Positions 39,801-54,412 of a stretch of DNA of 64,000 nucleotides are shown piece after piece. A program made the translations under genes and the position numbers. Under the pieces are notes generated by a model. It did no database searches, had not been told where the DNA came from, and was given only the letters and a program-made list of their open reading frames with translations. The stretch's first letter is position 1, and each line of letters begins with the position of its first letter. Source of the stretch: Candidatus Woesearchaeota archaeon (GTDB lineage: Archaea; Nanobdellota; Nanobdellia; Woesearchaeales; JABGXB01). Location of the stretch: NCBI GenBank assembly GCA_018675975.1, contig JABGXB010000002.1, forward strand, positions 124,001 through 188,000, read 5' to 3'.

Positions 39801-40368
39801 TTAATCTCTCTTCAACTTTATTTAATTCATTTAAGGTTTTTTGTCTTTTTTCTTCATAAACATTAATTCCCGCCACTTCTTCAATTATTTTTCTTCTATC
39901 TTCAAGCTTCATATCAATAAATTTTACAATATCCCCTTGTAATATTATATTAAACCCTTCAGATGTTATTTTACCATAGGCCAACATATTTTGTACTTCA
40001 ACTTTAGTACATTTTTTATCATTAATTTTATACACACCAGTTCCATTATGTTTAACAATTCTTGAAACTTTAACTTCTGGCGTTTCACAAGGAAATAATT
40101 TATTAGAATTATCCAGATAAATACTCACTTCACCCTCTTTTGCAGGATTTTTTAACTTTCCCCCATTATATATTAAATTAGCCGACTTTTCACTCCTAAG
40201 CCCCTTAGCTGAAGACCTTCCTAAAACAAAACATAATGCATCTAAAATATTACTTTTTCCCGATCCATTAGGACCAATTACACAATTAAAATTATCACCA
40301 AATATAAGTTCTGAGCGTTTTGCAAAGGATTTAAATCCCTTCATCTCTAATTTATTAATTTTTGTCAC
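36862..40368 (-). CDS. smc: Chromosome segregation ATPase SMC
   Basis: A full-length SMC of 1168 residues: Walker A GPNGSGKS at 33-40, a first coiled coil, a hinge (about 515-660, with HGMVSELGEVNEEY and ASGAMIGGYRKK), a second coiled coil, signature LSGGEKTM near 1066, and Walker B FYILDEIDAALD. It folds and segregates the chromosome as a dimer with kleisin partners not seen here. A GAGAGGAAA site lies before the start and a TATA box ATTTATAAATA further up. Confidence 0.96.
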   Translation of the reverse strand: MTKINKLEMKGFKSFAKRSELIFGDNFNCVIGPNGSGKSNILDALCFVLGRSSAKGLRSEKSANLIYNGGKLKNPAKEGEVSIYLDNSNKLFPCETPEVKVSRIVKHNGTGVYKINDKKCTKVEVQNMLAYGKITSEGFNIILQGDIVKFIDMKLEDRRKIIEEVAGINVYEEKRQKTLNELNKVEERLKEADIILKEREGYLTELKTERDQALKYNELKKNIDFNHGAYLFKKIEGRKSKVDLIEKNILKNQEEINKFNEKILEIETDVKNKKNNINLINKEIEDKGEKEQVQLQKQIENIKVELATNNSRINSIDKELKRVEERKSQLDEQNQEMKSKMDIAQNEIEGLKKKKNTIEKELDIIKKSILKFRDKNKLNDDLDSVYGQIDKHDEEEEILQKEINLLRTQQQEITRRKDKYEILIESLSEKYEKLAIAKKENAKQLKDLENKRDEFKKITQELNILLNNDSNFVAQIKNARDNVNVYSEKAAKLQAKQNSLVQNAAGDNAINYVLDMKSKNPQIHGMVSELGEVNEEYSLALEICAGGRIKDIIVEEDKVASNIISELKSKQIGACRFLPLNKIKSKPIEASQQIFAKKDGAIDFAINLVKFDNRFKNAMSHVFSNTLIVKNLDVARKIGIGKIRMVTLDGDLIEASGAMIGGYRKKLKHGSGGFAKKELNDEIKKVEKQFSDSSSVLSLLESKRHDNMDKIDRLRSFKSELDGDIKSLEKRLNIDSDELGEYDVQKETLTKQVDEMDTENDQVITKISQINSQMAKIKIEKTSLKNKVAATRSPKVLAELNTFEDKKKELEQDLIKVDTQIQSLNSQIKNIMNLEDSQTIKIIKSMEKEIIDFKEEKIKLVEVNKKFDDDLKLKEKQAEKFYLQFKELFQKRSELESNVNELNLKITQLNLKLKDFDNFKNNSNIEKAKFNAELMGLESEFEPFKDNDYSNVQKDESVLKSEITRWENEIVKIGNVNLRALEMYDIVEKEFNELLDKIKQLQEEKESVLLMLNEIETVKKEIFMKTFDKINHNFKEIFLNLNSKGEAFLELENEEMPFEGGLSVKVRLSGNKFLDIKSLSGGEKTMTTLAFIFAIQEYDPHSFYILDEIDAALDKHNSETLAKYVESYSKKAQYIVISHNDAVISDANYLYGISMNEHGMSTITTLKI

Positions 40369-40422
40369 AAATTTCCTCTCTTTTAATATAATATCCTGAA
40401 AAACTATTTATAAATATTCTGC

Positions 40423-41691
40423 TTACTTTTTATCAAAATCTAAAACATTCTTAAAACTATTTTTACTTAGGTGCAAGTCCTTCTCTGATTCAAGTTCTTG
40501 ATTTATTTTATTTTCTAATACTCCTTTTAAATGATTTCTGTGCATAGAATAAAATAAATTAGTACCTACAATTAAACTCCACATCCCTATAGATTCATAA
40601 GTGAAAAAATTATGATTTTTATAAAAATAATATCCCCCCACTCCATAAGGACTTAGACCTAATATACCTCCTATAATCTTAGATCCAAACATAGTTTTTG
40701 GAAAATAAAATGGATTTTTGTTTTCATCTTCTTTAAAAATACTTCCTAAATTAAAAGGAAATTTTAAACCATTTTTTAAACCAGTTAAAAAATTATTTCC
40801 TAATCCTTTTAAAAAATCACAACTTAACATTTTAAAACCAAATTTAACATAATATTTTGCCACATCTAAAACTGGAACTTCACTCATTTTTGTATCAAAA
40901 ATTTCATTAAAATGTTTTCGTTTAGCTAAATAAGAATTTAAAATAAAAGAAGAATCTTCATTACTTAAATGATCCAAATCTTGTGAAAATTCTTCAAGAG
41001 ATAAACGCCTGTATGGATTTTCATTAGTACCATAATATAATAAATTTGTTAAAATATTTCCAGTTTTTGTATCTTGTTTTAAAATATCTGGATCAATCAT
41101 ATTTTTTAATATTGAACATAATGAATACGTCATACTTTTATCAGACCAAATACCCTCCATTAGTTCCGGTGCTTGAAATGCACCATCATAATCTTCACAA
41201 GAAATTGGTTCCAATTTACTATGTTTGGAAGTAAAATGTTCTAAATTATCTATAACTAAATATTCACTATCTTCATCTTCTTTTTGTATTAATATATTAT
41301 CCAAATTAATATTAGTATTAATTAATTTTTCACTTTTATACAAATTAAATAATACATTAGTCAAATTTTGAACTAAATCAATTGCATCTTCAGGAATAAA
41401 ATAACCCTCTTTTAAATTTTCTCTTAATGTTTGAAAACCAGGATTACATCTTTGAAAATAGTATTTTTGATAATCAAACTCTAAAAAAGCAACAAAATTT
41501 GGTGAATGTTTTTCTAAACAACCTTTTGCTTTTTTTATATATCTTGGAGAAGATTTTGTTTTATCACCTATTTTTTTTAAAACATAACTATTTTTTTTAT
41601 GTTCAATAGATAAAGGTAATTTGGGGTTAGCAAAATTTAATCTTCTAATAAATTCAAGTTTAATTTCCCCTTCTAAGCTTACTGTTTCCAT
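40423..41691 (-). CDS. Membrane-associated protein-kinase-like protein (probable pseudokinase)
   Basis: The order of parts is that of an eukaryotic-type kinase: a short beta-rich N lobe, TNINLDNILI in the position of HRDxKxxN (catalytic Asp replaced by Asn, His/Arg lost, the Asn kept), VIDNLEHF in the DFG position, and FQAPELMEG as the APE motif. After the kinase domain (to about 265) lie helices and two hydrophobic segments (about 335-360 and 368-388). The missing catalytic Asp suggests a pseudokinase or highly divergent kinase. It lies between SMC and the S17e/Alba genes. Confidence 0.65.
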   Translation of the reverse strand: METVSLEGEIKLEFIRRLNFANPKLPLSIEHKKNSYVLKKIGDKTKSSPRYIKKAKGCLEKHSPNFVAFLEFDYQKYYFQRCNPGFQTLRENLKEGYFIPEDAIDLVQNLTNVLFNLYKSEKLINTNINLDNILIQKEDEDSEYLVIDNLEHFTSKHSKLEPISCEDYDGAFQAPELMEGIWSDKSMTYSLCSILKNMIDPDILKQDTKTGNILTNLLYYGTNENPYRRLSLEEFSQDLDHLSNEDSSFILNSYLAKRKHFNEIFDTKMSEVPVLDVAKYYVKFGFKMLSCDFLKGLGNNFLTGLKNGLKFPFNLGSIFKEDENKNPFYFPKTMFGSKIIGGILGLSPYGVGGYYFYKNHNFFTYESIGMWSLIVGTNLFYSMHRNHLKGVLENKINQELESEKDLHLSKNSFKNVLDFDKK

Positions 41692-41758
41692 TAAAAAATA
41701 AAATTGTTTTAATTTTATAAATATTTATCGCCTATTAAAACAAGTTTAAATAATAAAC

Positions 41759-41767
41759 ATTTATAAA
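41759..41767 (+). promoter_or_regulatory. TATA box
   Basis: ATTTATAAA occurs 22-30 bases before the ATG at 41789 and suits a leaderless transcript of the small membrane protein gene. Confidence 0.4.
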
Positions 41768-41788
41768 TAAAAAAATTGTCAGGCTCCT

Positions 41789-41983
41789 ATGAAATATAGT
41801 CAAAATAAGATATATAATTCAGGCAAAGAACCAGAATTAAATGATTTTCTTGCATTATTTGGAAAAACCTTAATTTATGGGACAATTACTGGTATTGTAT
41901 TATCAGGAAGCATAATTGGTAGTAAGAAAGTAATTAATGAATATTTAATCAAACCCACTTATTCTTATATGAGTAAAAAATAA
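41789..41983 (+). CDS. Small single-pass membrane protein
   Basis: A 64-residue protein with one central hydrophobic helix (about 23-46, LFGKTLIYGTITGIVLSGSI) and charged ends. No family was recognised. A TATA box at the right distance and a run of same-strand genes with S17e and Alba support it as real. Confidence 0.5.
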   Translation: MKYSQNKIYNSGKEPELNDFLALFGKTLIYGTITGIVLSGSIIGSKKVINEYLIKPTYSYMSKK

Positions 41984-41985
41984 AT

Positions 41986-41996
41986 AATTTTATAAA
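41986..41996 (+). promoter_or_regulatory. TATA box of S17e-Alba genes
   Basis: AATTTTATAAA lies 23-33 bases before the ATG of S17e (42019), a normal archaeal promoter distance for a leaderless or short-leader transcript. Confidence 0.45.
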
Positions 41997-42018
41997 CAAA
42001 TGGCTGAATCTGAAAGGT

Positions 42019-42219
42019 ATGGGAAGAATTAAAACAAAATTAATTAAAAGAATTAGTAGAGAAATCCTAGAAAAATATAAAGATCAAATAAGTACTGATT
42101 TTAAAGAAACAAATCATAAATTACTTTCTTTTGCTGAAGTTCGAAGCAAAAAATTAAAAAATATTATTGCAGGTTATTTAGTTAGATTAAGAAAAAATAT
42201 GAAAGATTATGAATTATAA
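42019..42219 (+). CDS. rps17e: Ribosomal protein eS17
   Basis: An archaeal/eukaryotic-specific small-subunit protein of 66 residues. MGRIKTKLIKRISREILEKY and EVRSKKLKNIIAGYLVRL match the family along its whole length. It lies 34 bases upstream of Alba, which has its own GAGGAG ribosome binding site, so the two are probably co-transcribed. Confidence 0.93.
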   Translation: MGRIKTKLIKRISREILEKYKDQISTDFKETNHKLLSFAEVRSKKLKNIIAGYLVRLRKNMKDYEL

Positions 42220-42253
42220 TAATTTTTCAAGTAAATAAATAAGAGGAGTAAAA

Positions 42254-42550
42254 ATGACAGAGCAACAAGCAGACAATATAATCTATGTTGGTGCAAAAAG
42301 ATTTATGAATTATGTTACTGGTGTAGTAATGCAATTTACAAATGAAAATAATGCAGAAGTAATTGTAATGGCTAGGGGTAAACATATATCAAAAGCAGTT
42401 GACATTGCACAAGTAGCCGAAAAGAAATTCTTAAATGGACAAATTCATATTGAAAATGTAAAAATATCTTCAGAAGAATATGAAAATAAAGAAGGAAAAC
42501 AAGTAAGAGTTTCTACTATTGCTATAATATTAAAGCGTAATACTGAATAA
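42254..42550 (+). CDS. albA: Alba DNA/RNA-binding protein
   Basis: An archaeal chromatin and RNA-binding protein of 98 residues. NIIYVGAKRFMNYVTGVV, then VIVMARGKHISKAVDIAQVA with the conserved GKxISKAVD helix and the Lys that can be acetylated, and a C-terminal strand with VSTIAIILKR. GAGGAG occurs six bases before the ATG. It is directly upstream of tRNA-Arg and the integrated element. Confidence 0.94.
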   Translation: MTEQQADNIIYVGAKRFMNYVTGVVMQFTNENNAEVIVMARGKHISKAVDIAQVAEKKFLNGQIHIENVKISSEEYENKEGKQVRVSTIAIILKRNTE

Positions 42551-42616
42551 TTTTTTTAATTTTAACAATTTTTATAACTTATTCTTTTTATATTATTAAT
42601 ATTAGAAAATTAAATT

Positions 42617-42690
42617 GGCCCCATAGCATAATCTGGATAGTGTAGAAGGTTTCGACCCTTCTGGTCTGGGTTCGAATCCCAGTGGGGTCG
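42617..42690 (+). tRNA. tRNA-Arg(TCG), integration site
   Basis: GGCCCCA pairs with TGGGGTC (7 bp, one G-T). The anticodon stem GAAGG/CCTTC encloses TTTCGAC, giving anticodon TCG. The T arm CTGGG-TTCGAAT-CCCAG is perfect and the discriminator is G. CCA is not encoded. An integrase reading frame on the same strand runs through the 3' part of this gene without a stop, so the 3' half is the likely attachment site of the element that follows. TATA-like TTTTATATT is about 30 bases upstream. Confidence 0.95.
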
Positions 42691-43589
42691 TTTATTCTTT
42701 ACATTCTATTAAGGAGAGAGTTAATGTTGGAGTAAAACGTACGTATAAATTTGACATAAATCATGCGTATAGTGTAGATATTGAACCCCTCAAATTAGGG
42801 AGATATAGGGAGTTTCTTGAATGGATATATACTCAAAATTATTCTAAAGATCATAACTCTCATTTAATATCTTATTTTAAAAAACACTGGGTGGGGAAGT
42901 TATTCAAAGATGTATTTTCTTTAAAAAAATTTATTTCCAAACAAACTAAAGGAGTGGAGTTCATAGTTAAATCAGCCAGGAGTTATTTAAATTATTTGGA
43001 AGAAACTAATCAAAATTCAAAAGAATATTTAGATAAATGGAGAGAGGTTCTAAAATATAAGAGACAATATCAAGATCATTATATTCCATCAGATGAAGAT
43101 GTAATGAAGAATTTTGAAATAATAAAATCTCACGATGTTCTTAAAATACTTTATTTAGTTTTAGCTACAAGTGGAATTAGATTAGTTGAAGCAATTGAGT
43201 TTTTGAAATCATATGAACAAGATAAGTTTACAGCTCATGATGGATTTGTTTCATACAATATTTCTTCAATAAGAGGAACTAAATGCACAAACAACATCTA
43301 TTTACCTTTGTGGGTCTACAAACAGCTTAAACACATAACAAATTCATATCAAAGTCTTAGGATGAGGGTTAATAAAAAAGGATGTATATTTCCTTTAAAA
43401 TATCTCAGAAAATGGCATTATAACATGATGTTATTTAATGGAGTTCCTGAATCAGTAGTGGATTTTATACAGGGAAGAACAAATAATTCAATTTCATCTA
43501 GACATTATTTGGGAAAGGTTCAACAAGCAAATTATTGGTTTTGCAAATTACTTGGATCTGAAATTAAAGTAATGAATGGTTTTGACTGA
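42627..43589 (+). CDS. SSV-type tyrosine integrase, C-terminal fragment starting inside tRNA-Arg
   Basis: Recombinase domain with the archaeal catalytic set: TSGIRLVEA (Arg I), RGTKCTN (Lys), KYLRKW (KxxR as in SSV1 integrase), QGRTNN (Arg) and SSRHYLG (nucleophile Tyr). A GTG at 42891 gives 232 residues, but the frame is open without any ATG back to 42627, within the tRNA-Arg gene; the peptide read across the tRNA is GFDPSGLGSNPSGVV. This is what is left at one border when an SSV-type integrase gene is cut by integration; the N-terminal part should be at the other border. The 3' end overlaps the convergent gene by 58 bases. Confidence 0.82.
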   Translation, partial: HNLDSVEGFDPSGLGSNPSGVVYSLHSIKERVNVGVKRTYKFDINHAYSVDIEPLKLGRYREFLEWIYTQNYSKDHNSHLISYFKKHWVGKLFKDVFSLKKFISKQTKGVEFIVKSARSYLNYLEETNQNSKEYLDKWREVLKYKRQYQDHYIPSDEDVMKNFEIIKSHDVLKILYLVLATSGIRLVEAIEFLKSYEQDKFTAHDGFVSYNISSIRGTKCTNNIYLPLWVYKQLKHITNSYQSLRMRVNKKGCIFPLKYLRKWHYNMMLFNGVPESVVDFIQGRTNNSISSRHYLGKVQQANYWFCKLLGSEIKVMNGFD

Positions 43590-44482
43590 GCTAATAATAA
43601 ATAGTCATTGGATAAGTATGTTTTATTTTTATTGAGTTTTTTTGAAATCTTATGTAAAAAAAATCTGAATTCTGCACTATATTTTTTTTTTGTAAAGACT
43701 TTTTGAATTATTTTAGGGTGATCATCATTTTTAGCTTTGTCAACATATTCTTTTGTCAATGAAATTTTGTGATTATAATAAAATTTATTTGCAGAATTAA
43801 AGAGAGGTGATTCATCAGTTTCTAAGTAAAGAAAATAAGAATCAATTTCAAACTCATATAAATTTATATCCGCTATTAATTTTTTTAATAAAATTATATT
43901 GTTTCTAAATAGATTGTTTAAATTTGGATAATTATTTTTATCTTTAATTTGATTTTTTACTAATTCAGAAATATTAACATATGTGGTTTGTTTTATTTTA
44001 TAATTTAATATTAACATTGTTTTTTTTATTAAACTACTTAATTTAATATCCTCTGTGTCTTTTTCGAATAATTGTTTTTTGTTTATTTTAGAATTTAATA
44101 AATCTATATTTGTTTCATTTATACCATGAATTCTAATTTGATCATCATATGCAGTCTTATCTTCTAAATTTATCATGTGTATATCCTTATATCTATAATT
44201 TGACAACAGAAGCTTATGTGAAACTTTTCTAGTAGATTGCTCATTTATTTTTATTATGGTATCCGCTTCTTGTTCATGATAGTACTTTTTTTCTACAGAA
44301 TTAATTACGATGTATTGATACAACAGCAATTTTTTTAATATTCTTTCAATTTGTTTTCTATTTGTATTTATTTTCTTTTCTATTTCACGAATTGTTACGC
44401 CTCTATGTCCATTTTTAGCAACGTAATCTAACACTTGTTGTGCATATTTCATTTTTTTTATTTGGTCATTAATTGATTTCAT
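43532..44482 (-). CDS. Winged-helix protein of the integrated element
   Basis: A 316-residue protein whose N terminus is a helix-turn-helix (YVAKNGHRGVTIREIEKKIN, then TNRKQIERILKKLLLYQYI). The rest is charged and mostly helical with no recognised domain. It lies between the integrase fragment and the RHH gene, divergent to the latter, so it may repress the element's early genes. The start region shares a 73-base control gap with the plus-strand genes. Confidence 0.6.
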   Translation of the reverse strand: MKSINDQIKKMKYAQQVLDYVAKNGHRGVTIREIEKKINTNRKQIERILKKLLLYQYIVINSVEKKYYHEQEADTIIKINEQSTRKVSHKLLLSNYRYKDIHMINLEDKTAYDDQIRIHGINETNIDLLNSKINKKQLFEKDTEDIKLSSLIKKTMLILNYKIKQTTYVNISELVKNQIKDKNNYPNLNNLFRNNIILLKKLIADINLYEFEIDSYFLYLETDESPLFNSANKFYYNHKISLTKEYVDKAKNDDHPKIIQKVFTKKKYSAEFRFFLHKISKKLNKNKTYLSNDYLLLAQSKPFITLISDPSNLQNQ

Positions 44483-44555
44483 ATTTGTCTTATTTGTCCT
44501 AAATATTTAAACCTTATGACGGCATATGATTCAATGTAACTATGAGGTAACACAG

Positions 44556-44717
44556 ATGACAAGAAAAATTTATTCAATAATATTTCCTGGTCAGTTGATC
44601 AAGGAAACAGAAAAAATACGGAAAATGTATGGAAGCTCATTTTCTAGCTTGGTAAGACTAGCATTAGAAAATTATGTGAAATACTTTACAGGAGGTAAAA
44701 AAAATGGACAAAAATGA
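44556..44717 (+). CDS. Ribbon-helix-helix (CopG-like) protein
   Basis: A 53-residue protein starting MTRKIYSIIFPGQLIKETEK, a strand followed by two helices (MYGSSFSSLVRLALENYVKYF), the RHH pattern. The start at 44556 is favoured over 44526 by GAGGT eight bases upstream. It is probably a repressor or copy-control protein of the element and overlaps the next gene by 14 bases. Confidence 0.65.
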   Translation: MTRKIYSIIFPGQLIKETEKIRKMYGSSFSSLVRLALENYVKYFTGGKKNGQK

Positions 44718-45048
44718 TACATTGGATTGGCAAGCCTTTGGTAAGGAATTTGTAAAAATTTCTTCAGATGAACAGATTGACATGACATTGTCAAATTGGC
44801 AAACAATAACAAAAGATTATCAAGGTAAATCTACAGTTTATCTTGACTTTGATTGTATGGAAGAAAATGGTCTTCCTTGCAATAAAAAATATCAAACTTC
44901 ATCAAAAAGATTGGCAAGATTGTTTAAGCCTATTATTGAAGAAGCTAAAGAAAAAAATGAAACAACAATAAGAGTACGATTGTTAAAGATGGGTGAAGGC
45001 ATATCATCTAAATTTTCTTTAAATAGAATTTACTCTGGGGACAATTAG
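44704..45048 (+). CDS. Small protein of the integrated element, possible OB-like fold
   Basis: A 114-residue protein, preceded by a strong GGAGGT ribosome binding site. The strand-rich second half (STVYLDFDCMEENGLPCNKK and RVRLLKMGEGISSKFSL) is compatible with a small nucleic-acid-binding domain, but no family match is certain. Position between an RHH regulator and an ERCC4 nuclease points to replication or repair of the element. Confidence 0.5.
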   Translation: MDKNDTLDWQAFGKEFVKISSDEQIDMTLSNWQTITKDYQGKSTVYLDFDCMEENGLPCNKKYQTSSKRLARLFKPIIEEAKEKNETTIRVRLLKMGEGISSKFSLNRIYSGDN

Positions 45049-45065
45049 TCCTTTTTATATTTAAA

Positions 45066-45509
45066 ATGAAACTAGTTGTAGATACCAGAGAACAAAAACC
45101 GTATTCAGATAAGTTCAATACTAGTATTTCTTTTGTATTTAAAACTCTTAGCACAGGAGACTATAGTATTGATGGGTATGAAAACAAGTTTGCTATTGAA
45201 AGAAAATCTAAGGACGATTTTATTTCATCAATAACTTATGATAGAAATCGGTTTGAAAAAGAGGTAAAGCGATCTAAAAATTTGGATTTTTTTGCAGTTT
45301 TAATTGATTGTGATTTTGCGGATTTTGCAAATAGAAATTATTATTCCCAACATGTTACTCCTAACCAGATTTTAGGGACTCTTTATGCTTGGTCAATAAA
45401 GTATAATATACATTTTCATTTTGTAGGATCGAGAACAAATGGAGCTTATGTAGTAGAAAAATTAGCATACAATTATTTAAAATATAGAGGTGCTGAGAGT
45501 GTCAACTGA
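45066..45509 (+). CDS. ERCC4/XPF-type structure-specific nuclease
   Basis: The whole 147-residue protein is an ERCC4 nuclease domain: VVDTREQKPYS, TGDYSIDGYE, and AIERKSKDDFISSI with DRNRFEKEV, giving the GD(n)ERKxxxD active site. It lacks the helicase and tandem HhH parts of XPF, so it is a stand-alone nuclease as found on viruses and plasmids. It should cut branched DNA. It overlaps the next gene by 20 bases. Confidence 0.85.
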   Translation: MKLVVDTREQKPYSDKFNTSISFVFKTLSTGDYSIDGYENKFAIERKSKDDFISSITYDRNRFEKEVKRSKNLDFFAVLIDCDFADFANRNYYSQHVTPNQILGTLYAWSIKYNIHFHFVGSRTNGAYVVEKLAYNYLKYRGAESVN

Positions 45510-47589
45510 AGTTAATGTTTCCAATACTTCCAATGATTCCGATAATAGTAATTCTTTTTTTAATTTTTATTTTAAATTAAGAGATAGTGCTTTTAGTTTA
45601 GTTAATTTACAAGAAAAAGAATTTTATGAACCAGCTATAATTCAATTGATGTATGCATTGTTAGGTTTGCCATTAAGAAAATATCCAATTGTAATTGGAG
45701 ATGAAAAATATGGAACAAGAATGCACTGTTTAATTGCAATTCGAAGTGGTAATGGTAAAAATTCTTTTATACAAGCAATAAAAAAGTTTTGTGATAAATT
45801 TAATTATACTTATGCACCAATTGCTAGTCTTCATGAAGAACAATTAATTGGTAAATTAAAAATTAATGAAAAAAAGGAAACTTTTGAGTCACCTGGATAT
45901 TTTAGGTTTGATTTTATTGTGTTAAACGACAGCCTACTATTATTGAATGAGAAAAAATATGAAAAAATTAGAGAATATTTTATTAGAGGATGTGATGAAT
46001 CATTTTCAAATGAAATTATGAAAAAACAAGTTGATATGGCTGATAAAATAGGCTTACGATACAACCCTGAATTTGTTTGTTTTTTATTTGTTCAAGATAA
46101 ATTAATATTAAAATCTAACGTAGATACTGGTTTTGTTAGAAAAGTTCCAATGTTAGCAATTGATCCACCTACTGTAGACTATGATATGTTAATGTCTAGA
46201 ACTAAAAAACAAGATTCCAATAAATCTAATTTTATTTATAGCTTAACTGGAATGATTAGAAACATTGGAAACATAAAGTGGAATTTTGATGAAATGGATG
46301 AAATTAAAAAAAATATCACATTCTTATTAAAAAATAAATATATTTTTGGAACACCTTCTGGAGCATTAACTATTGATTCAAATAAAGCCACTAAAGGTGG
46401 TGGCATTGGAAGATTTTTTGAAAGTAAAGATAGAGAATTAACTGAAAATCAAATAAAAATATTGACATATTTAAAATTACATGAAGGAATTAGTAATACA
46501 TCACCAATGTCAGAAGAATTAGAACTTTCTGAAAATATTATTTTTAGCGCATTTAAAACTCTTAAAAATTTAAAACATATAAGACAATTAAGTAATGGAT
46601 TATATGTCATTTCAGGATTAAAAGGAGAAGAAAACATAAAATTAGAAAAATTAAAAGTATTTGATAATTTAAAAGATTACTTAATTGGAAGTCCAGATCA
46701 AATTGAAAATAAAACTAGTTTAATAAATCATTTAGCAGAGGAATTAAAACTCTCAAGAAGTATTATTAAATTTTATTTTAATCAAATTTTAACTGATAAA
46801 TTAATTTATAGAACAGAAAAACAAAATTATAAATTAAATACTGCTTTGCAACAAAATGAAACTAAAAATAAAGCAGTCATAGAGTATATATTAAATAATG
46901 GAAAAACCAAATTTATTAGTTTAAAACAAAGATTTCAAAATTTTGATATGTTAGTCCCATCACAAAACTATGGAATTGAACAAACAAATTTAGAAAAATA
47001 TTTAGAAGAAATGTGTATTGCAAATTTAATTTTCAAATATAATCAAGAAGAATATTTTATTTGCTCAAAAGGAGAAGCAAAAAAGGAATGTGTGAATGTA
47101 TTAAGATCTGCATTTCCACAAAAATTAAAAAATTATAATACACTTGAAAAAGTATTTGAAAATTCATTTTTAAAAAACGAATATTCATTTTTAGAATTTG
47201 AATCTGCAGTAAATCATTTAGTTCAAAATGGAGAATTATTTTATTTATATAATGGACTATATACTGGAAACAAAACCTTATGCTCAAGTGATGCATTAAC
47301 TAAAAATACAAATAAAATTAAAAAAACTCATATACAAATTGATAGTAAAAATTTACAATTTCAAGCATTAACTAAATTCCCAGGTTTAAATCAAATGTTA
47401 GAATTAGTATTAGCCAGGCCAAATCAAACAGCAAATTTTAAAGAATTAGAATTTTGCTATAATCAACATAAAAACAAAAGAGGCTATACATTTGATGAGG
47501 CCATTCGCTATCTTAAAGGATTAGAAATATTAAAATCCATTGGAATGGGGAATTTAACTATTAATCCTATATTAGTTAAAAACATATAG
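45490..47589 (+). CDS. Divergent MCM-like AAA+ replication protein
   Basis: A 699-residue protein. A P-loop is present in AIRSGNGKNSFIQAI, and about 55 residues later FIVLNDSLLLLNEKKYEKIREYF has the shape of the MCM Walker B region with weakened acidic residues. GFVRKVPMLAIDP could hold an Arg finger. Several winged-helix-like segments follow (about 320-420 and later), for example SPMSEELELSENIIFSAFKTL. It is probably the replicative ATPase of the element. Start is GTG at 45490 or 45499. Confidence 0.58.
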   Translation: MLRVSTEVNVSNTSNDSDNSNSFFNFYFKLRDSAFSLVNLQEKEFYEPAIIQLMYALLGLPLRKYPIVIGDEKYGTRMHCLIAIRSGNGKNSFIQAIKKFCDKFNYTYAPIASLHEEQLIGKLKINEKKETFESPGYFRFDFIVLNDSLLLLNEKKYEKIREYFIRGCDESFSNEIMKKQVDMADKIGLRYNPEFVCFLFVQDKLILKSNVDTGFVRKVPMLAIDPPTVDYDMLMSRTKKQDSNKSNFIYSLTGMIRNIGNIKWNFDEMDEIKKNITFLLKNKYIFGTPSGALTIDSNKATKGGGIGRFFESKDRELTENQIKILTYLKLHEGISNTSPMSEELELSENIIFSAFKTLKNLKHIRQLSNGLYVISGLKGEENIKLEKLKVFDNLKDYLIGSPDQIENKTSLINHLAEELKLSRSIIKFYFNQILTDKLIYRTEKQNYKLNTALQQNETKNKAVIEYILNNGKTKFISLKQRFQNFDMLVPSQNYGIEQTNLEKYLEEMCIANLIFKYNQEEYFICSKGEAKKECVNVLRSAFPQKLKNYNTLEKVFENSFLKNEYSFLEFESAVNHLVQNGELFYLYNGLYTGNKTLCSSDALTKNTNKIKKTHIQIDSKNLQFQALTKFPGLNQMLELVLARPNQTANFKELEFCYNQHKNKRGYTFDEAIRYLKGLEILKSIGMGNLTINPILVKNI

Positions 47590-47671
47590 AATTATTATAA
47601 ATAATTTTTAGATAATATGAATATATTACAATTTAATAAATTTTATAAAATAATGATAATATTTAACAAAA

Positions 47672-48082
47672 ATGGATTTTGAATTAGAAATAAGAAAATA
47701 TCAAAAAAGATTAATATTAAAACCAAATGATAATGAAATGGATTTTGATATACTAAGATCCACCCATCCAAAACACACACAAAAATTAGATTTTTCTTTT
47801 TTATCAAATATAATTTTACATGAAAGATATTCATTATTAATTTTACCCAAAAAAAAAATTAAACCATTTAAAAAAATGTTAATTTATTTATATAATTTAG
47901 ATGTTGAAAAAGAAAAAAAATCACATAATCGTGACGGATTTCAAATATCATATGGAATAATCAAATATACTTTGGGTTGTGAAGGATTGTATCAAGAAGG
48001 TATTAATTTTGTTCCTAGTAATTTAAGAAATGCAGTTTTCAAACAAGGAATTGAACTACTATTAACTCATAAATATCCATAA
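47672..48082 (+). CDS. Protein of unknown function
   Basis: A 136-residue soluble protein, basic in the middle (LILPKKKIKPFKKML), with a Gly-containing C-terminal third (YGIIKYTLGCEGLYQEGINF). No family was recognised. It follows the element by 82 bases with a TATA-like stretch; whether it belongs to the element or to the chromosome is unclear. Confidence 0.5.
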   Translation: MDFELEIRKYQKRLILKPNDNEMDFDILRSTHPKHTQKLDFSFLSNIILHERYSLLILPKKKIKPFKKMLIYLYNLDVEKEKKSHNRDGFQISYGIIKYTLGCEGLYQEGINFVPSNLRNAVFKQGIELLLTHKYP

Positions 48083-48144
48083 AAATAATTATTTTTTCTA
48101 AATATTTTATTCATAAAGAAAATAAACAAATAGAGTTTAAAAAA

Positions 48145-48735
48145 TTATTTACGTAAATTATCTCTTGGATTATAATTAGACCAAGGAATTCCAATAAATA
48201 TATTATCACCACATTTAGAAAACTGATGATCTTCTAATTTAAAACCAGAATCTAAAACTTTTGGAATAATATTTCCCCTAAAAAAATCATTTACTGATTC
48301 AGCCCAAAGTAATTGTTCATGACCTAAACTATAAATAATATCTTCATAATATTTTAAATCTGGAATTTGTTTTAATTGTTCTCTTACTTCACGTATATCA
48401 ACTCTATCTAAAACTATTCTAGAATAACTAATAACAGGCCTTCCTTTACTCAATATTTTTTTACCATCATCATCAGTCAGATCACCAAGAGTACTCCTAA
48501 GCTCATAAGACATAACAAAAGAAGAAGGATCCATATTAACTCTAGAAAAATGCAAATTATTTCCAAGATGAATATTTAATCGTCTACCAGGTATTACACC
48601 AATATCTTCACATGCTTGTAAATATTCAGCTTTTTTATCTCTATTTTCATCTGTAATACTAGTAAATATGCCAGGTGCTTGATTATGTAATTCTTTTATT
48701 TCTGGTCGCATAAAATATGCATATAAATGTGCCAT
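48145..48735 (-). CDS. Protein of unknown function
   Basis: A 197-residue soluble protein starting MAHLYAYFMRPEIKEL. The frame is open far upstream (to 48921), but those codons are hydrophobic nonsense and overlap the divergent YdcF-like gene, so 48735 is chosen. LNIHLGNNLHFSRVNMDPSSF, GRPVISYSRIVLDRVDI and LLWAESVNDFFRG look like conserved elements, but no family was recognised. Confidence 0.55.
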   Translation of the reverse strand: MAHLYAYFMRPEIKELHNQAPGIFTSITDENRDKKAEYLQACEDIGVIPGRRLNIHLGNNLHFSRVNMDPSSFVMSYELRSTLGDLTDDDGKKILSKGRPVISYSRIVLDRVDIREVREQLKQIPDLKYYEDIIYSLGHEQLLWAESVNDFFRGNIIPKVLDSGFKLEDHQFSKCGDNIFIGIPWSNYNPRDNLRK

Positions 48736-48785
48736 AATCACAAAATAAAAAAATAATTTATAAATCAGTTGGTAATAAATATCAT

Positions 48786-49541
48786 ATGTTAAAACATATA
48801 TTTTTAATCCTTTGTGGTGAAGATGAACATAAAAGACCAAGATCTTTAAAATTATTAAGACATATAAAAGAATTAAAATTAGATGAGAGTCAGTATAAAA
48901 TAATTGTAAGTGGACTTTCAAGCTTTAACCTACATCCACATATGCCAGAATATTTGTCATTATCAAGATTTTTAATTAATCATGAAATTAATCCAAATAA
49001 TATTATTGTAGAAAAAGAATCATTAGATACTTTAGGAAATATGGTTTTTTCCCATGATATAATTGTTAAATTATTAAAAACAAATTTTCAAAACAAACCA
49101 ATAACAATTTCATTAATTACTGAAAATTTTCATATGTCTAGGAGTAAAGAATTATTTTTAAAAATATTTAAAGATATTAAACATGAATTTAGAGTTGATT
49201 TTAATTATATTTCTGCAAATACTTTTGGACTCTCTAGTTATTATTTCCACAGAAAATTAAATGTTCTTTGTCAAAAATTTTTAAGAAAAAATAGACTAAA
49301 AGAAGATATAAAAGATTTATATGAAAAATCAGCATCACACTTTAAAAGAAATTTATTAGATTTTTTTTTAATGGATGTAATTTTAACTGATATTGATTTT
49401 TATAGATTACACACGATTTACGAATTCAAAGATTATTTATTTTCATTACCTGTTTATAATACAAAATATAATCCAATTCATAGAAAAAACATAAATTTTT
49501 CATTGTATGCCAAATTAATAAATTTACATATAAAAAAATAA
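48786..49541 (+). CDS. YdcF/DUF218-like protein
   Basis: The order ILCGEDEHKRPRS, IIVSGLSSF, IIVEKESLDTLGNMVFSHDI and SLITENFHMSRSKELF follows the DUF218 (YdcF/SanA/ElyC) fold, including the E-x-S-x-(D/N)T-x-(E/G)N and FHM-x-R motifs. Family members bind nucleotides or act in envelope biogenesis; this one lacks a membrane anchor. The C-terminal 100 residues are family-specific. Divergent from the 48145-48735 gene. Confidence 0.72.
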   Translation: MLKHIFLILCGEDEHKRPRSLKLLRHIKELKLDESQYKIIVSGLSSFNLHPHMPEYLSLSRFLINHEINPNNIIVEKESLDTLGNMVFSHDIIVKLLKTNFQNKPITISLITENFHMSRSKELFLKIFKDIKHEFRVDFNYISANTFGLSSYYFHRKLNVLCQKFLRKNRLKEDIKDLYEKSASHFKRNLLDFFLMDVILTDIDFYRLHTIYEFKDYLFSLPVYNTKYNPIHRKNINFSLYAKLINLHIKK

Positions 49542-49548
49542 AAAAAAA

Positions 49549-49941
49549 TTATTCTTCTTTTAATGCTTGACTAAGTGCCATAAATAAAAGAGGAATGGCT
49601 GCTACAAATAAAAAGCCTGGAGGAGCTGCAGCAGGTGGTAATTGAAATGTTGTCAAAAGTTTTGGCATTGTTGCAATTATAGTAGATAATAAAAATACAG
49701 ATGCAATCCAAGCAGACCATTTTGTATATTTATTTACAAAAAATGAAATTGCTATTAAAACTTGCAAGATTCCTATAATCATAATCAATGTAGTTGAAAA
49801 TACAGTCCCATAAAACATTTTATATGCATTGTTTGCAAACCAATCAGATTGAGTTAATTTTAATAAACCAAATATAAAGAAAAATATACCCAGCCCAATT
49901 CTGATCATAAGTTGACTTGTTTTATTATCATTAAGTTTCAT
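49549..49941 (-). CDS. DoxX-family membrane protein
   Basis: A 130-residue protein with four membrane helices, beginning with the DoxX-like helix RIGLGIFFFIFGLLKLTQ and an ASVFLLSTIIATMP helix. DoxX proteins are linked with redox or sulfur metabolism in other prokaryotes. A second DoxX gene lies at 56686. A Pro/Ala-rich loop (LPPAAAPPG) precedes the last helix. Confidence 0.72.
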   Translation of the reverse strand: MKLNDNKTSQLMIRIGLGIFFFIFGLLKLTQSDWFANNAYKMFYGTVFSTTLIMIIGILQVLIAISFFVNKYTKWSAWIASVFLLSTIIATMPKLLTTFQLPPAAAPPGFLFVAAIPLLFMALSQALKEE

Positions 49942-50072
49942 ATTATAACCCCAATTTAGTTTTAATAATTATTTAAAAAATAAATTAAATAAACATTGCT
50001 TTGTATGTTCAAAATTAAATTTTAAACTAAAAACATAATTTAATAAGACAAAAAATCTATTTTTTATATAAA

Positions 50073-51407
50073 ATGACAATTAAAAAAAAATCAATCTCAA
50101 AATCAAATAAATCTAAACAAATAAAATCCAAAGAAAATTCTCTTTTTGATAGTGCTAAAATTAATTTTTTAAATGCTGCAAAATCATTAAAACTCGAACA
50201 AGATGTTATGAATATTTTATCAAATCCAAAAGAAATTTTACAAGTTAATATTCCAATTAAATTACACGATGGAAAAATAAAAATCTTTAAAGGATTTAGA
50301 GTACATTATAATGATACCTTAGGCCCAACTAAAGGAGGAATTAGATATCATCCAAATGTAAGTTTAAATGAAGTAGAGACATTATCATTTTGGATGACAT
50401 TTAAATGTTCAGTATTAAATTTACCTTTTGGAGGAGCAAAAGGCGGAATTATTGTTAATCCAAAAGAATTAAATCCAGATGAACTTGAAAAATTATCTCG
50501 TGGTTATATTAGAGCCATATATGATTTTATTGGACCTGATGTAGATATTCCTGCGCCAGATGTTTATACTAATCCTACAATAATGGGTTGGATGAATGAT
50601 GAATATAATAAAATTGCAAGAGCACATGTTCCTTCTATGATAACAGGTAAACCAGTTCATTTAATGGGAAGTAAAGGTAGAGATGATGCGACTGCACGTG
50701 GTGCGTATTATATAATAAAAGAATATGTAAAAAAATGGAAGAAAAAGCCAAGTGAAATTAAAGTTGCAGTTCAAGGTTTTGGTAATGCAGGATATCACAT
50801 TTCAAGACTATTACATAATGATGGATTCAAAATTGTTGCAGTTAGCGATTCCAAAGGAGGAGTATTTGTAAAAAAAGGAACTTTAGATCCAGAATCATTA
50901 TATAATTTTAAAAATAAAAATAAAACATTAAAAGCTGTTTATTGTAAAGAATCAATATGTAATATTGTAAAACATGAAAAAATAACTAATGAAGCTTTAT
51001 TAAAATTAAATGTAGATATATTAATTCCAGCAGCACTTGAAAATCAAATTACTAAAAATAATGTAAATCAAATTAAAGCAAAATTAATTTGTGAAATTGC
51101 AAATGGCCCTATTTCTCATGATGCACATGAATTTTTAATTAAAAAAAAAATCGAAGTTATACCAGATATTTTAGCAAATGCAGGTGGAGTTACAGTTAGT
51201 TATTTTGAATGGTTACAAAATAAAAGTGGAGATTATTGGGATTTAGAAAAAATTCACGAAGAATTAAAAACTAGAATCTTAAAATCATACAATGAAGTTG
51301 AATGTGCAGTTAAAAAATATAAAGTTGATATGAGGTCTGCAGCGTATATTGTAGGAGCAAGAAGACTATCTGAATCAATAGAAGCTAGAGGATCTAATCA
51401 TCTTTAG
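50073..51407 (+). CDS. gdhA: Glutamate dehydrogenase
   Basis: It catalyses reversible oxidative deamination of glutamate to 2-oxoglutarate, linking carbon and nitrogen metabolism. GFRVHYNDTLGPTKGGIRYH, CSVLNLPFGGAKGGI (catalytic Lys) and VDIPAPDVYTN are diagnostic, and the Rossmann motif VAVQGFGNAGYHI follows. The first 25 residues are a Lys/Ser-rich extension. Single gene with a TATA-like TTTTTATATAAA close to the ATG. Confidence 0.95.
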   Translation: MTIKKKSISKSNKSKQIKSKENSLFDSAKINFLNAAKSLKLEQDVMNILSNPKEILQVNIPIKLHDGKIKIFKGFRVHYNDTLGPTKGGIRYHPNVSLNEVETLSFWMTFKCSVLNLPFGGAKGGIIVNPKELNPDELEKLSRGYIRAIYDFIGPDVDIPAPDVYTNPTIMGWMNDEYNKIARAHVPSMITGKPVHLMGSKGRDDATARGAYYIIKEYVKKWKKKPSEIKVAVQGFGNAGYHISRLLHNDGFKIVAVSDSKGGVFVKKGTLDPESLYNFKNKNKTLKAVYCKESICNIVKHEKITNEALLKLNVDILIPAALENQITKNNVNQIKAKLICEIANGPISHDAHEFLIKKKIEVIPDILANAGGVTVSYFEWLQNKSGDYWDLEKIHEELKTRILKSYNEVECAVKKYKVDMRSAAYIVGARRLSESIEARGSNHL

Positions 51408-51536
51408 ATAAATATATTTTCAACTAAACTTCAATATACAATAAATAGTTATTTTTTATCAAAAACAAAAGAATATTAATTGATCACCAAAACGTGGTTC
51501 TATTTAATTTATATATCAAAAGTCAAATAAAAAATT

Positions 51537-52310
51537 ATGAATTTAAATAATACTTTTTATGAAAGAGATTTATTAATAAAAAGAAGTCCAAATTTTGAAG
51601 AGGACCATCAATATATTGTAATGGGAGATAAAACTTATACTTCAGTTACAGAATTATGTGAAAGATTTTTTGAAGAATTTAATGCAGATCAAATTATAGG
51701 TAAATTTTACAAAAGATGGCAATCAAATCGACATCATAAATATTATGAAATGAGTAAAACACAAATTAAAGAATTCTGGGAAAAAGAAAAAACAAATGGT
51801 GCCAAAAGAGGAAGCATATTTCACAGTAATATTGAAGATAATTTTAAAGAAATTGAAAGTTTAGAAAAACCTGATCCAGAACTATGGCAAGGTTTCTTAA
51901 ATTTTTTAGAGGATCACCCAGGAATAAAACCACAAAGATTAGAATGGGCTATTTTTGATGAAGACTTTAAAGTTGCTGGAAGTTTAGATGCTCTCATGAG
52001 TTATAATGGAAAATTAATTTTATTAGATTGGAAACAAAATAAAAATATAACTCAACAAGGTTTTAACGGAAAAAAAGCAAAATCACCCATACAACAGTTA
52101 GATCACTGTGATTTAACTAAATACCAAATACAAATAAATATATATAGACACATATTAGAAAGCAAATATGATATCCCTATCTCCGCTCAAGATATAGTTT
52201 GGTTTAATGCCAGTCACCAAAGAGGTTATAGAAAATTTGAAACACCAAGACTTGAAACAGAAATTAAATCAGTGCTTGAATGTAATAGAATAAAAAATTT
52301 AGAATTATAA
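51537..52310 (+). CDS. PD-(D/E)XK nuclease (RecB/Cas4-like)
   Basis: A 257-residue nuclease-fold protein: KRGSIFHSNIEDNF (His/Glu helix), RLEWAIFD, VAGSLDALMSYNGKLILLDWKQNK with the Asp and D-x-K active-site residues, and DLTKYQIQINIYRHIL as the QxxxY-type helix. This is the RecB-family exonuclease core without Fe-S Cys, as in phage and virus recombination nucleases. There is no CRISPR array nearby, so it is not a Cas4 of an active locus. Confidence 0.78.
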   Translation: MNLNNTFYERDLLIKRSPNFEEDHQYIVMGDKTYTSVTELCERFFEEFNADQIIGKFYKRWQSNRHHKYYEMSKTQIKEFWEKEKTNGAKRGSIFHSNIEDNFKEIESLEKPDPELWQGFLNFLEDHPGIKPQRLEWAIFDEDFKVAGSLDALMSYNGKLILLDWKQNKNITQQGFNGKKAKSPIQQLDHCDLTKYQIQINIYRHILESKYDIPISAQDIVWFNASHQRGYRKFETPRLETEIKSVLECNRIKNLEL

Positions 52311-52322
52311 AAAAAAAAAAAA

Positions 52323-52517
52323 TTAAATTAGTTCACCAATTTCAACTTCATCATTTTCATCAACTAAAACACTATCAATTTCTTCAATAGTTGATTCATC
52401 AGTTAAATCCGTTTCACCTTCAGTTTCTATATTTTCTATTACATTAGATTCAGTAGAACTACATCCAGCTATAAAAAATATACCAATAATTAAAGTAATA
52501 ATTAATAATTGTTTCAT
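52323..52517 (-). CDS. Small acidic lipoprotein
   Basis: A 64-residue protein with signal sequence and lipobox (FFIAGCSS), then an acidic, Glu/Asp/Thr-rich chain with no fold evident. Its start overlaps the stop of the secreted protein gene by four bases, so both are made together. It is probably attached to the outer face of the membrane. Confidence 0.7.
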   Translation of the reverse strand: MKQLLIITLIIGIFFIAGCSSTESNVIENIETEGETDLTDESTIEEIDSVLVDENDEVEIGELI

Positions 52518-53605
52518 TTGTTCTTACCTCCTCGATTATTAGATTTAACATCAGAAGTTTTAGATTTACTAATTGCTCTTTTGTCATTTACATTACTTTT
52601 TACTTTTTTAGTCGGTTTTACAGATTTACTATTTCTAACTTGTTTTGATTTCAATCCACGCTTACCATCTTTATCTAATTTTTCTACTCTTCTATCTTTC
52701 CGTTCCTGTTTTCTTTCTTTTATATTTTCTTTTAATTTATTAAATTTAGATTTTACATCTAACTTTGCTTTTACTCTTTCTTTTTTAATATCACTAAAAG
52801 CTTGTCTTTTTTCTTCTTTAGTCATTTCACCCATTCTAGATTTAATTTCTTGTCTTGCTTCTTTTAAATTCAACTTACCTTCTTTTATACCTTGAATAAG
52901 TTCTTTTTTTTCTAAACCTAATTTACCAAAAAAGTGAGATAATTTATTTGCATTATATTCATCTCTTTTTTCTTTAATTCTATCTCTAAGTTCTTTTAAT
53001 TCAGATTTATCAACTTTTTCCACCATTAATTTTAATTCTTTTAAATCTTCTTTTGGAATTACTTCATGCACTGTTTTTCTAAAATTTTGAACTAACTCTC
53101 TAGCATCTTTTTTTAAATCCACAAAATTTTGAACTGAATCTTCACTACTAATATTAGCACTAACAACTTCATTTTTTATTTCACTCAATTCATTTAATAT
53201 TAATTCTAATTCTTGAGAACTTATATTTAATTCATTAACAGCATCTACAATACTTTGAGCTTTTAATATTGAAACAGATATAGATTTTTCTAATTGTAAT
53301 AATCTCATTTCTCTTCCACGTAAACCATCCATAGCTCTTAATTCATTTTCTGTTTCTTCATCTACTGAATCATCTTCAGGAATTTCTTGATCAGTTTCAT
53401 TATTTTCTATACTAATAGTTTCTATAGTAACATTATTCAAATCAGTTAAATTATTATCAGTACTTTCAACATCTTCTAAATTAGTTACTTCTATATTTGT
53501 ATTTTCTAAACTATTATCTTCAGTAGTATTTTCTTCAGCTATAGCTGCTGGAGCAATACTAAATACTAATAATAACATCATCATCATTGTATATATTTTT
53601 TTCAT
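52514..53605 (-). CDS. Secreted coiled-coil protein with basic tail
   Basis: A signal peptide (MKKIYTMMMMLLLVFSIAPA), an acidic Asn/Thr/Glu-rich stretch (to about 90), long helical coiled coil (about 95-300) and a very basic, Ser/Lys/Asn-rich tail of about 60 residues. It could bind the acidic cell surface or extracellular DNA; no family is recognised. A strong GGAGG site precedes the ATG, and operator-like repeats lie upstream. Partner lipoprotein follows. Confidence 0.7.
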   Translation of the reverse strand: MKKIYTMMMMLLLVFSIAPAAIAEENTTEDNSLENTNIEVTNLEDVESTDNNLTDLNNVTIETISIENNETDQEIPEDDSVDEETENELRAMDGLRGREMRLLQLEKSISVSILKAQSIVDAVNELNISSQELELILNELSEIKNEVVSANISSEDSVQNFVDLKKDARELVQNFRKTVHEVIPKEDLKELKLMVEKVDKSELKELRDRIKEKRDEYNANKLSHFFGKLGLEKKELIQGIKEGKLNLKEARQEIKSRMGEMTKEEKRQAFSDIKKERVKAKLDVKSKFNKLKENIKERKQERKDRRVEKLDKDGKRGLKSKQVRNSKSVKPTKKVKSNVNDKRAISKSKTSDVKSNNRGGKNK

Positions 53606-53640
53606 AATTTTCCTCCAGGTATTTTTTACCTATATTCTTG

Positions 53641-53686
53641 TAAACAGGAACAACATATTAATTTTAGCCGGAATAAACCGGAACAA
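53641..53686 (-). promoter_or_regulatory. Repeated operator-like motif
   Basis: Three related 13-base motifs on the plus strand: TAAACAGGAACAA (53641-53653), TTAGCCGGAATAA (53664-53676) and TAAACCGGAACAA (53674-53686). They lie between the regulator gene end and the secreted protein start, upstream of the latter. They are good candidates for the site bound by the membrane regulator at 53699-54412. GC content is high for this genome. Confidence 0.55.
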
Positions 53687-53698
53687 AGTGAAACAAAC

Positions 53699-54412
53699 TC
53701 ACTTTTTTAATGAAATTAAGTTTGTCATACCTTTTGATTCTTTAATAATAATATTTTTTCTAATTAATGAGTCAATATTACGTGAAAGTGAAGCTTTTGG
53801 AATATTTATTACTTTTTGCAAATATGCTTGAGTTACTGAACCTTTATTTTTTATAATTAAATCAAAAATTTGTTTTTGTCTATCAGTTAAAGCATTAGTA
53901 TTATATTTATTTTTTTTATTTTTTCTATATTTAATATAATAAATTAAATAAATTATTAAAATTGTTAAAGTTATTAAAAATACTAATGAATAATTATCTT
54001 CATTAGTTTTACTATATGAATATTGTGCCAAAAATTTAAGTTCTGCACTTTGAGCAGTACTTGTAATAATTATTCTATTATCACTATTATCAATATTTAA
54101 AATATTTGGAATTTTTATATAATTGATATTTGTATTTTGTGGAAACTTTAATTCAAAAATGTATTCAGAAAATGTTTCATCAATACTAAAATTAATTATC
54201 CAAAATTCACCTTTTTTTGAAGTATAATTTTGACTTATATGATTTTGTAATAATGGATGATTACTATTTCCAGATATTTCAACTAAACCAGTTTCACTAA
54301 TATCAAAAATAATATCTGCTTGATAGTCTATTGCTGAAACTAATGAAAATGTAAATATTAAAATAAATAAAGTAATTATATACTTTTTAATAACCATATA
54401 TCTTAATTTCAC
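53699..54412 (-). CDS. Membrane-bound one-component winged-helix regulator
   Basis: Signal-like first helix (to about residue 27), a beta-rich outside domain (28-140), a membrane helix (about 142-163, YSLVFLITLTILIIYLIYYI) and a C-terminal winged helix (LTDRQKQIFDLIIKNKGSVTQAYLQ, ASLSRNIDSLIRKNIIIKE). It can sense a signal outside and bind DNA inside. It lies directly upstream of the secreted protein/lipoprotein operon, whose control gap has three motif copies, so it probably regulates that operon. Confidence 0.75.
   Translation of the reverse strand: MKLRYMVIKKYIITLFILIFTFSLVSAIDYQADIIFDISETGLVEISGNSNHPLLQNHISQNYTSKKGEFWIINFSIDETFSEYIFELKFPQNTNINYIKIPNILNIDNSDNRIIITSTAQSAELKFLAQYSYSKTNEDNYSLVFLITLTILIIYLIYYIKYRKNKKNKYNTNALTDRQKQIFDLIIKNKGSVTQAYLQKVINIPKASLSRNIDSLIRKNIIIKESKGMTNLISLKK

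Follow-up and report, generated by a model that had tools for sequence, protein, structure and literature searches.

The integrase gene fragment at tRNA-Arg(UCG)

The window considered here is a stretch of 64,000 bases (C1:124001-188000; contig JABGXB010000002.1) from a Candidatus Woesearchaeota archaeon, whose assembled genome (GCA_018675975.1) comprises 1,028,475 bases (1.03 Mb) in three contigs and was scored as 100% complete. At positions 42616-42691 of the forward strand, ARAGORN predicts a tRNA-Arg(UCG) gene (anticodon TCG at 42652-42654), and out of this gene, on the same strand, runs the C-terminal fragment of an integrase gene, int(C) (42627-43589), which encodes a Phage_integr_3 catalytic domain (PF16795, E 8e-37) and stands at the left attachment site (attL) of an integrated mobile element. 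The integrase frame stays open from within the tRNA gene (42627) as far as 43586, with its stop codon at 43587; its first in-frame start codon is a GTG at 42891, and ATG, GTG and TTG are all absent upstream of that point. For the open run of 88 codons from 42627 to 42890, a first-order Markov simulation gave P ~0.0006. The catalytic residues R (43179), K (43281), KYLR (43398-43409), R (43476) and Y (43506) are all in place and invariant across seven homologues, so that two statements of an initial annotation made from the letters alone, i.e., that a frame with neither start codon nor stop leaves the tRNA gene from 42627 and that it carries an R, K, KxxR, R, Y set, both stand. A structure model of int(C) (mean predicted local distance difference test score, pLDDT, of 82) has its best PDB matches in 3uxu, 3vcf and 4dks, with the catalytic domain of the SSV1 integrase first. 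The probable attachment core extends from just past the anticodon to the 3' end of the tRNA (42655-42690, forward strand), as judged from the core repeats of related elements, and doubles as the opening codons of int(C); the attachment core thus lies inside the gene, and int(C) overlaps a tRNA gene that was made whole by integration, as it does in nine relatives.

Related elements and the missing half of the gene

Relatives were looked for in 99 genomes and then in 353 genomes from the same order, and nine close homologues were counted besides the window copy, a truncated copy in genome G022 included (genomes are cited below by such working labels). A first scan of the genome contigs with a single integrase sequence gave no match, and the IMG/VR viral contigs gave no relative. 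In all nine homologues the int(C) frame begins inside a tRNA gene, the target being tRNA-Leu in G041, G003 and G159, tRNA-Phe in G004 and G093, tRNA-Glu in G040 and tRNA-Arg(UCG) in G013, G275 and G022; in G013 and G022 introns misled the prediction program, and the anticodon was taken from the sequence by eye. Downstream of int(C) lies a direct copy of the 3' part of the tRNA gene, measuring 41 bp in G013 and G041, 39 bp in G004, 29 bp in G040, 69 bp in G093, 72 bp in G159 and, in decayed form, 17 bp in G275, and these core repeats, mostly of 29-72 bp, end at the tRNA 3' end or a few bases past it. The elements so delimited span ~15.5 kb (G013), 7.0 kb (G041), 8.7 kb (G004), 11.1 kb (G040), 6.8 kb (G093), 9.8 kb (G159) and 7.4 kb (G275).

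Each of these second cores is preceded by a short open frame with a start codon of its own, int(N), which runs in frame into the core except in the decayed G275. The int(N) pieces match CcdA (PF07362), a family of the ribbon-helix-helix (RHH) type, and four of the first five exceed the curated Pfam cut-off. With leave-one-out int(N) profiles the correct place always ranked first, at 33-58 bits. The contig of G003 is too short to reach the far border; there the profile pointed to another contig, on which a 53-bp core was then found behind int(N). Thus int(N) and a second core are present in eight of the nine relatives, and because the relatives carry int(N) before the second copy of the core, the layout of the gene is an RHH domain, then the core, then the catalytic domain, cut by integration. 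Homologues that are intact from a start at 42891, with neither an additional N-terminal domain nor a tRNA-derived peptide, would have told against the split that the initial annotation claimed, but the homologues carry both, and their similarity to the window integrase continues upstream of 42891. The N-terminal piece and core copy that the annotation suggested looking for were recovered from the eight relatives, in one case on a separate contig, as predicted, and from nowhere in the window's own genome. An uncut gene occurs in the more distant G336, where RHH and integrase domains share one frame (int(N) profile E 2e-8); this one-piece gene, of the kind that a free circle would carry, falls outside the clade of the window, and a circular form of an element was not seen.

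Several further observations concern the attachment sites. Introns are predicted behind the anticodon in several of the attL tRNA genes of G013, G004, G041, G159 and G022; the core repeats of G013 and G004 begin at or beside the end of the predicted intron, as if the position of the intron and the border of the core were linked. On contig C16 of G041 (locus L102, 40000-58000; about 40073-53900), two int(N) pieces with remnants of the core stand one after the other behind a tRNA-Phe gene, and int(C) is absent; these are tandem integrations that have decayed from the opposite end. Split integrases that bear an RHH domain or are related to those that do, with a core repeat overlapping a tRNA gene, were also seen at L063 (DHVE2), in G273 and at L067, where a whole tRNA gene lies at the far border and, in L067 and G273, the tRNA is on the strand opposite to int; the RHH N-piece is carried by DHVE2-group archaea as well. 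Two small genes, one of them apparently Alba-like, precede tRNA-Arg(UCG) in the window (42019-42550) and in G013 and G022, and lie in reversed order ~4 kb from tRNA-Arg(UCG) in G275; these two genes form a conserved host neighbourhood around the integration site.

The window copy as a remnant

A 27-bp pattern of the core, with as many as 3 mismatches tolerated, has a single occurrence in the 1,028,475 bases of the window's genome, with no second occurrence in the 64-kb window or the 181-kb neighbourhood, which confirms genome-wide the earlier remark that the 3' half of the tRNA has no copy further right. The sole other similarity, a 25-bp core match on contig C3, was rejected as a second attachment site; it is the T-arm of a tRNA-Gly gene. 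The int(N) profile likewise finds no match in the whole genome, with a best score of 10 bits in the 181 kb around the window, and the same search recovers the out-of-sample copies in G159, G275, G336 and G003. An RHH gene at 44556 was considered as a displaced int(N) and set aside, its product giving no match to the profile. This genome hence lacks the far-border pair of int(N) and second core, and it is on the absence of both that the window copy is an incomplete remnant, its lineage still placed in the suicidal integrase family by its relatives. Where the initial annotation had left the far border and the N-terminal piece as either missing or beyond the window, the former holds and the latter does not, both being absent from the assembled genome. 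The contig extends ~400 kb beyond the integration site, and therefore a deletion of the right end is the simplest reading: the far border would have been lost by deletion, leaving the element stranded, and since int(N) would have gone with that border, the element is presumably unable to excise by itself. Decay is also seen elsewhere, in the truncated int(C) at the tRNA-Arg gene of G022.

We are highly confident that a suicidal-type (type I) element integrated at tRNA-Arg(UCG) and has since lost the far border with its int(N); the binding of palindromes by its RHH domain, discussed below, is a further proposal. Two points count against this account: the search for relatives yielded no genome of the window's genus or family, and hence neither an empty site nor an intact sister element, and the far border of the window copy was not found, so that its extent and the deletion are both deduced.

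Of the other explanations, an element that is complete, with its right border in an assembly gap or displaced by chromosomal rearrangement, and that may still be mobile, is in our estimation unlikely. The assembly is in three contigs, and in Thermococcales chromosomal inversions have been associated with a pTN3-type suicidal integrase (PMC5495485), but the contig goes on far past the site in a genome scored as complete, neither a core copy nor int(N) is found anywhere in that genome, and the elements of relatives are only 6.8-15.5 kb long. Slightly less credible still is that int(C) has been kept for a host function or is expressed as a trans-acting catalytic fragment that serves incoming elements; its frame and catalytic residues are intact despite the loss of int(N), and trans-complementation involving Int(C) has been reported for pTN3/TKV4 (PMC8371274), but no start codon precedes 42891 and the truncated copy in G022 suggests ordinary decay. 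That a pNOB8-like (type II) integrase, complete from GTG 42891, merely stands beside the tRNA gene with an upstream frame open by chance is very improbable: this GTG is indeed the first in-frame start codon and the catalytic domain would be complete from it, but the open frame has the low P given above, the homology to relatives reaches upstream of 42891, PF16795 is the domain of the suicidal family (PMC8371274), and the pairs of int(N) and right attachment site (attR) in eight relatives already refute it.

Affinities among suicidal integrases

The suicidal families comprise the SSV, pTN3-like and pT26-2-like integrases, to which PF16795 has been assigned (review PMC8371274). The best annotated matches of the window integrase are those of pGE2 (E 3e-18), SSV7 (1e-15) and pT26-2 (5e-15), followed by SSV2 and the Aeropyrum ovoid virus. 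In a tree, the Woesearchaeal set of eight rows, the window among them, forms a clade (support 100/99); how the named integrase groups join one another is left open by this tree. When the int(N) profile was run against a set of six sequences, it matched pT26-2 (E 4e-7) and pGE2 (E 4e-8) and gave no match to SSV2, SSV7 or pXZ1. The N-domain of both SSV integrases tested, SSV2 and SSV7, is PF07935 (D-335), which is absent from the int(N) of the relatives, and on this character the lineage does not fall in the SSV (Fuselloviridae) subfamily. Eight relatives have an RHH-type N-domain, as do pT26-2 and pGE2; the window copy has lost its N-terminal half. By this domain of the relatives, the lineage, a suicidal (type I) integrase arrangement, comes closest in architecture to pT26-2 and pGE2, closer than to SSV proper. 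The "SSV-type" label of the initial annotation is thus retained in the broad, suicidal type I sense and given up in the narrow one. Identities of the window integrase to those of pT26-2 and pGE2 (27.6% and 29.2% over 86% of the query) are just below the threshold of the pT26-2-like subfamily, which is 30% identity over 60% of the protein (PMC8371274).

Resemblance to each of the known systems is accompanied by differences. The pT26-2 and pGE2 integrases share with the window lineage an RHH/CcdA-like N-domain, a core inside the gene and a PF16795 catalytic domain, whereas the stretch between their domains resembles an antisense tRNA T-arm (in the window lineage the tRNA is read in the sense direction), no perfect palindrome of the arm lengths tested lies beside their gene, and their hosts and cargo differ. 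SSV1, SSV2 and SSV7 are alike in having the gene split in a tRNA gene, the SSV1 catalytic fold and PF16795, and SSV1 also integrates in a tRNA-Arg gene, over 44 bp (PMC3293823); SSV2 and SSV7 are unlike in their unrelated PF07935 N-domain, and identity to SSV integrases is ~30% over the catalytic part. The pTN3-like integrases, which are type I and split at a tRNA gene (PMC5495485, PMC8371274), are likened here by description. The suicidal integrase, known from Sulfolobales, Thermococcales, Aeropyrum and Archaeoglobus, is thereby extended to a DPANN lineage, in which paired int(N) and int(C) halves are found at Arg, Leu, Phe and Glu tRNA genes within one clade. The open literature that we searched (subscription papers being outside its scope) has no mention of an RHH domain on suicidal integrases, nor of such integrases in DPANN.

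Palindromes beside the attachment site and a proposed mechanism

The palindromic motif TRCGYA, at its fullest TTATACGTATAA, recurs on both sides of the core: directly behind it, within int(C), and shortly ahead of the int(N) start. The window has two such sites, TACGTA at 42740-42745 and, 24 bp from it, TGCGTA at 42764-42769, which we propose as arm-type sites 1 and 2. The motif is present in 13 of 17 segments flanking attachment sites against 0.62 expected (z 16) and is the most enriched of 512 palindromic patterns; in 30 control sets of random segments the best pattern reached z 7.0. The 24-bp spacing recurs in G093 and also before the extra int(N) on contig C16 of G041, a sequence that was not used in defining the motif. 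TRCGYA is missing on both sides in exactly two elements, those of G013 and G275; these are the earliest to branch off within the clade, and their RHH beta strand has diverged (KVTITL and RIHINL, vs., e.g., RINLTI, KLNLTI and RVNITI elsewhere). It is through this strand that RHH proteins, as dimers, bind palindromic DNA. Because motif and strand diverge together, and because RHH proteins bind in this manner, the TRCGYA palindromes may be arm-type sites that are bound by the RHH domain of the integrase. Several facts weigh against this proposal: the motif was first spotted by eye in the same sequences that were later scored, the palindromes within int(C) are at the same time under coding constraint, the lack of the motif in G013 and G275 means that it is not universal, and in G003 the palindrome ahead of int(N) is another one (TTATGGCCATAA). 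At locus L082 (G336:C97, minus strand), an 18-bp perfect palindrome, GTCTCATTTAAATGAGAC, which is of different sequence and a candidate operator, stands just before the uncut RHH-integrase gene.

The scheme that we envisage begins with a small plasmid or virus that would have integrated at the 3' part of tRNA-Arg(UCG) in an archaeon of the Woesearchaeota order. On its free circle, a single integrase gene would encode an N-terminal RHH DNA-binding domain, the codons of the tRNA core, and a core-binding and catalytic domain. Recombination between this core and the tRNA gene would rebuild the tRNA (attL, 42616-42691), with int(C) running out of it, and would leave int(N) at the far border before the second copy of the core; that border, int(N) included, would later have been lost from the window's genome. 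The RHH domain would bind TRCGYA on either side of the core as arm sites on which the recombination complex assembles, and TRCGYA at or just before the int start codon would serve as an operator through which the N-domain represses its own gene. Integration would then separate the holder (RHH) from the cutter (the catalytic domain). That the RHH domain is both arm-binder and self-repressor on TRCGYA, that the splitting is a built-in one-way switch, and that palindromes and RHH strand have changed together is offered tentatively, at somewhat short of an even chance. A review of these integrases states that their N-termini recognise the site and make multimers, and nothing further (PMC8371274); if true, the RHH domain and its matching palindromes would give a concrete and testable answer to how the N-terminus acts and why integration goes one way. 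If the arm-site reading holds, lambda integrase is alike in outline, with a small N-domain on arm sites and a catalytic domain on the core, although its gene is in one piece and its N-domain is of a type other than RHH.

Cargo and right border

Among the genes to the right of int(C), an ERCC4-type nuclease (45066-45509, forward strand; PF02732, E 6e-16; PHROG 3490, E 5e-29) has a 43% identical homologue in the bordered element of G013, and the gene before it, for a small protein (44704-45048, forward strand), has a homologue (E 2e-17) beside the ERCC4 gene in that same element. Since these neighbouring homologues lie inside a bordered element, the nuclease and the gene before it belong to the element as cargo. 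From int(C) to ERCC4, the genes have a third-position GC of 0.16-0.22 vs. 0.06-0.15 for the genes to the left. The next gene (45490-47589, forward strand) encodes a large P-loop protein of 699 amino acids with homologues in 2 of 338 genomes, one of which is fused to Prim-Pol and a DnaG-type zinc ribbon and lies beside a tyrosine recombinase. Given this distribution and this fusion, the protein is probably a mobile-element replication ATPase, which is likelier than an MCM; its best profile match in the test for MCM is a weak one to MCM_C (E 0.066), it has no relative in the PDB, and a structure model from the single sequence (pLDDT 33) was unusable. Of the cargo originally proposed, the ERCC4 nuclease is therefore secure, the winged-helix and RHH regulators stand on weak profile matches, and the MCM-like ATPase is not borne out. 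A defence role for the cargo was considered and rejected, the PADLOC matches being only marginal.

The genes at 47672 (47672-48082, forward strand, a protein without relatives) and 48145 have no homologues among the 145 genomes of the order that were searched, which leaves the right border somewhere between 47589 and ~48.8 kb. A TACGTA palindrome at 48150, 5.5 kb from the tRNA, might mark a lost right arm; we make no claim for it, since eight such sites occur in the 64 kb and this one is within chance. Nearer to the integrase, a small RHH/CopG-like protein, distinct from the integrase N-domain, is encoded at 44556-44717 on the forward strand (PHROG 7325, CopG-like repressor, E 0.002), and a putative regulator of winged-helix type, with weak matches to helix-turn-helix families, at 43532-44482 on the minus strand. 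The latter gene and int(C) overlap tail to tail by 58 bp (43532-43589).

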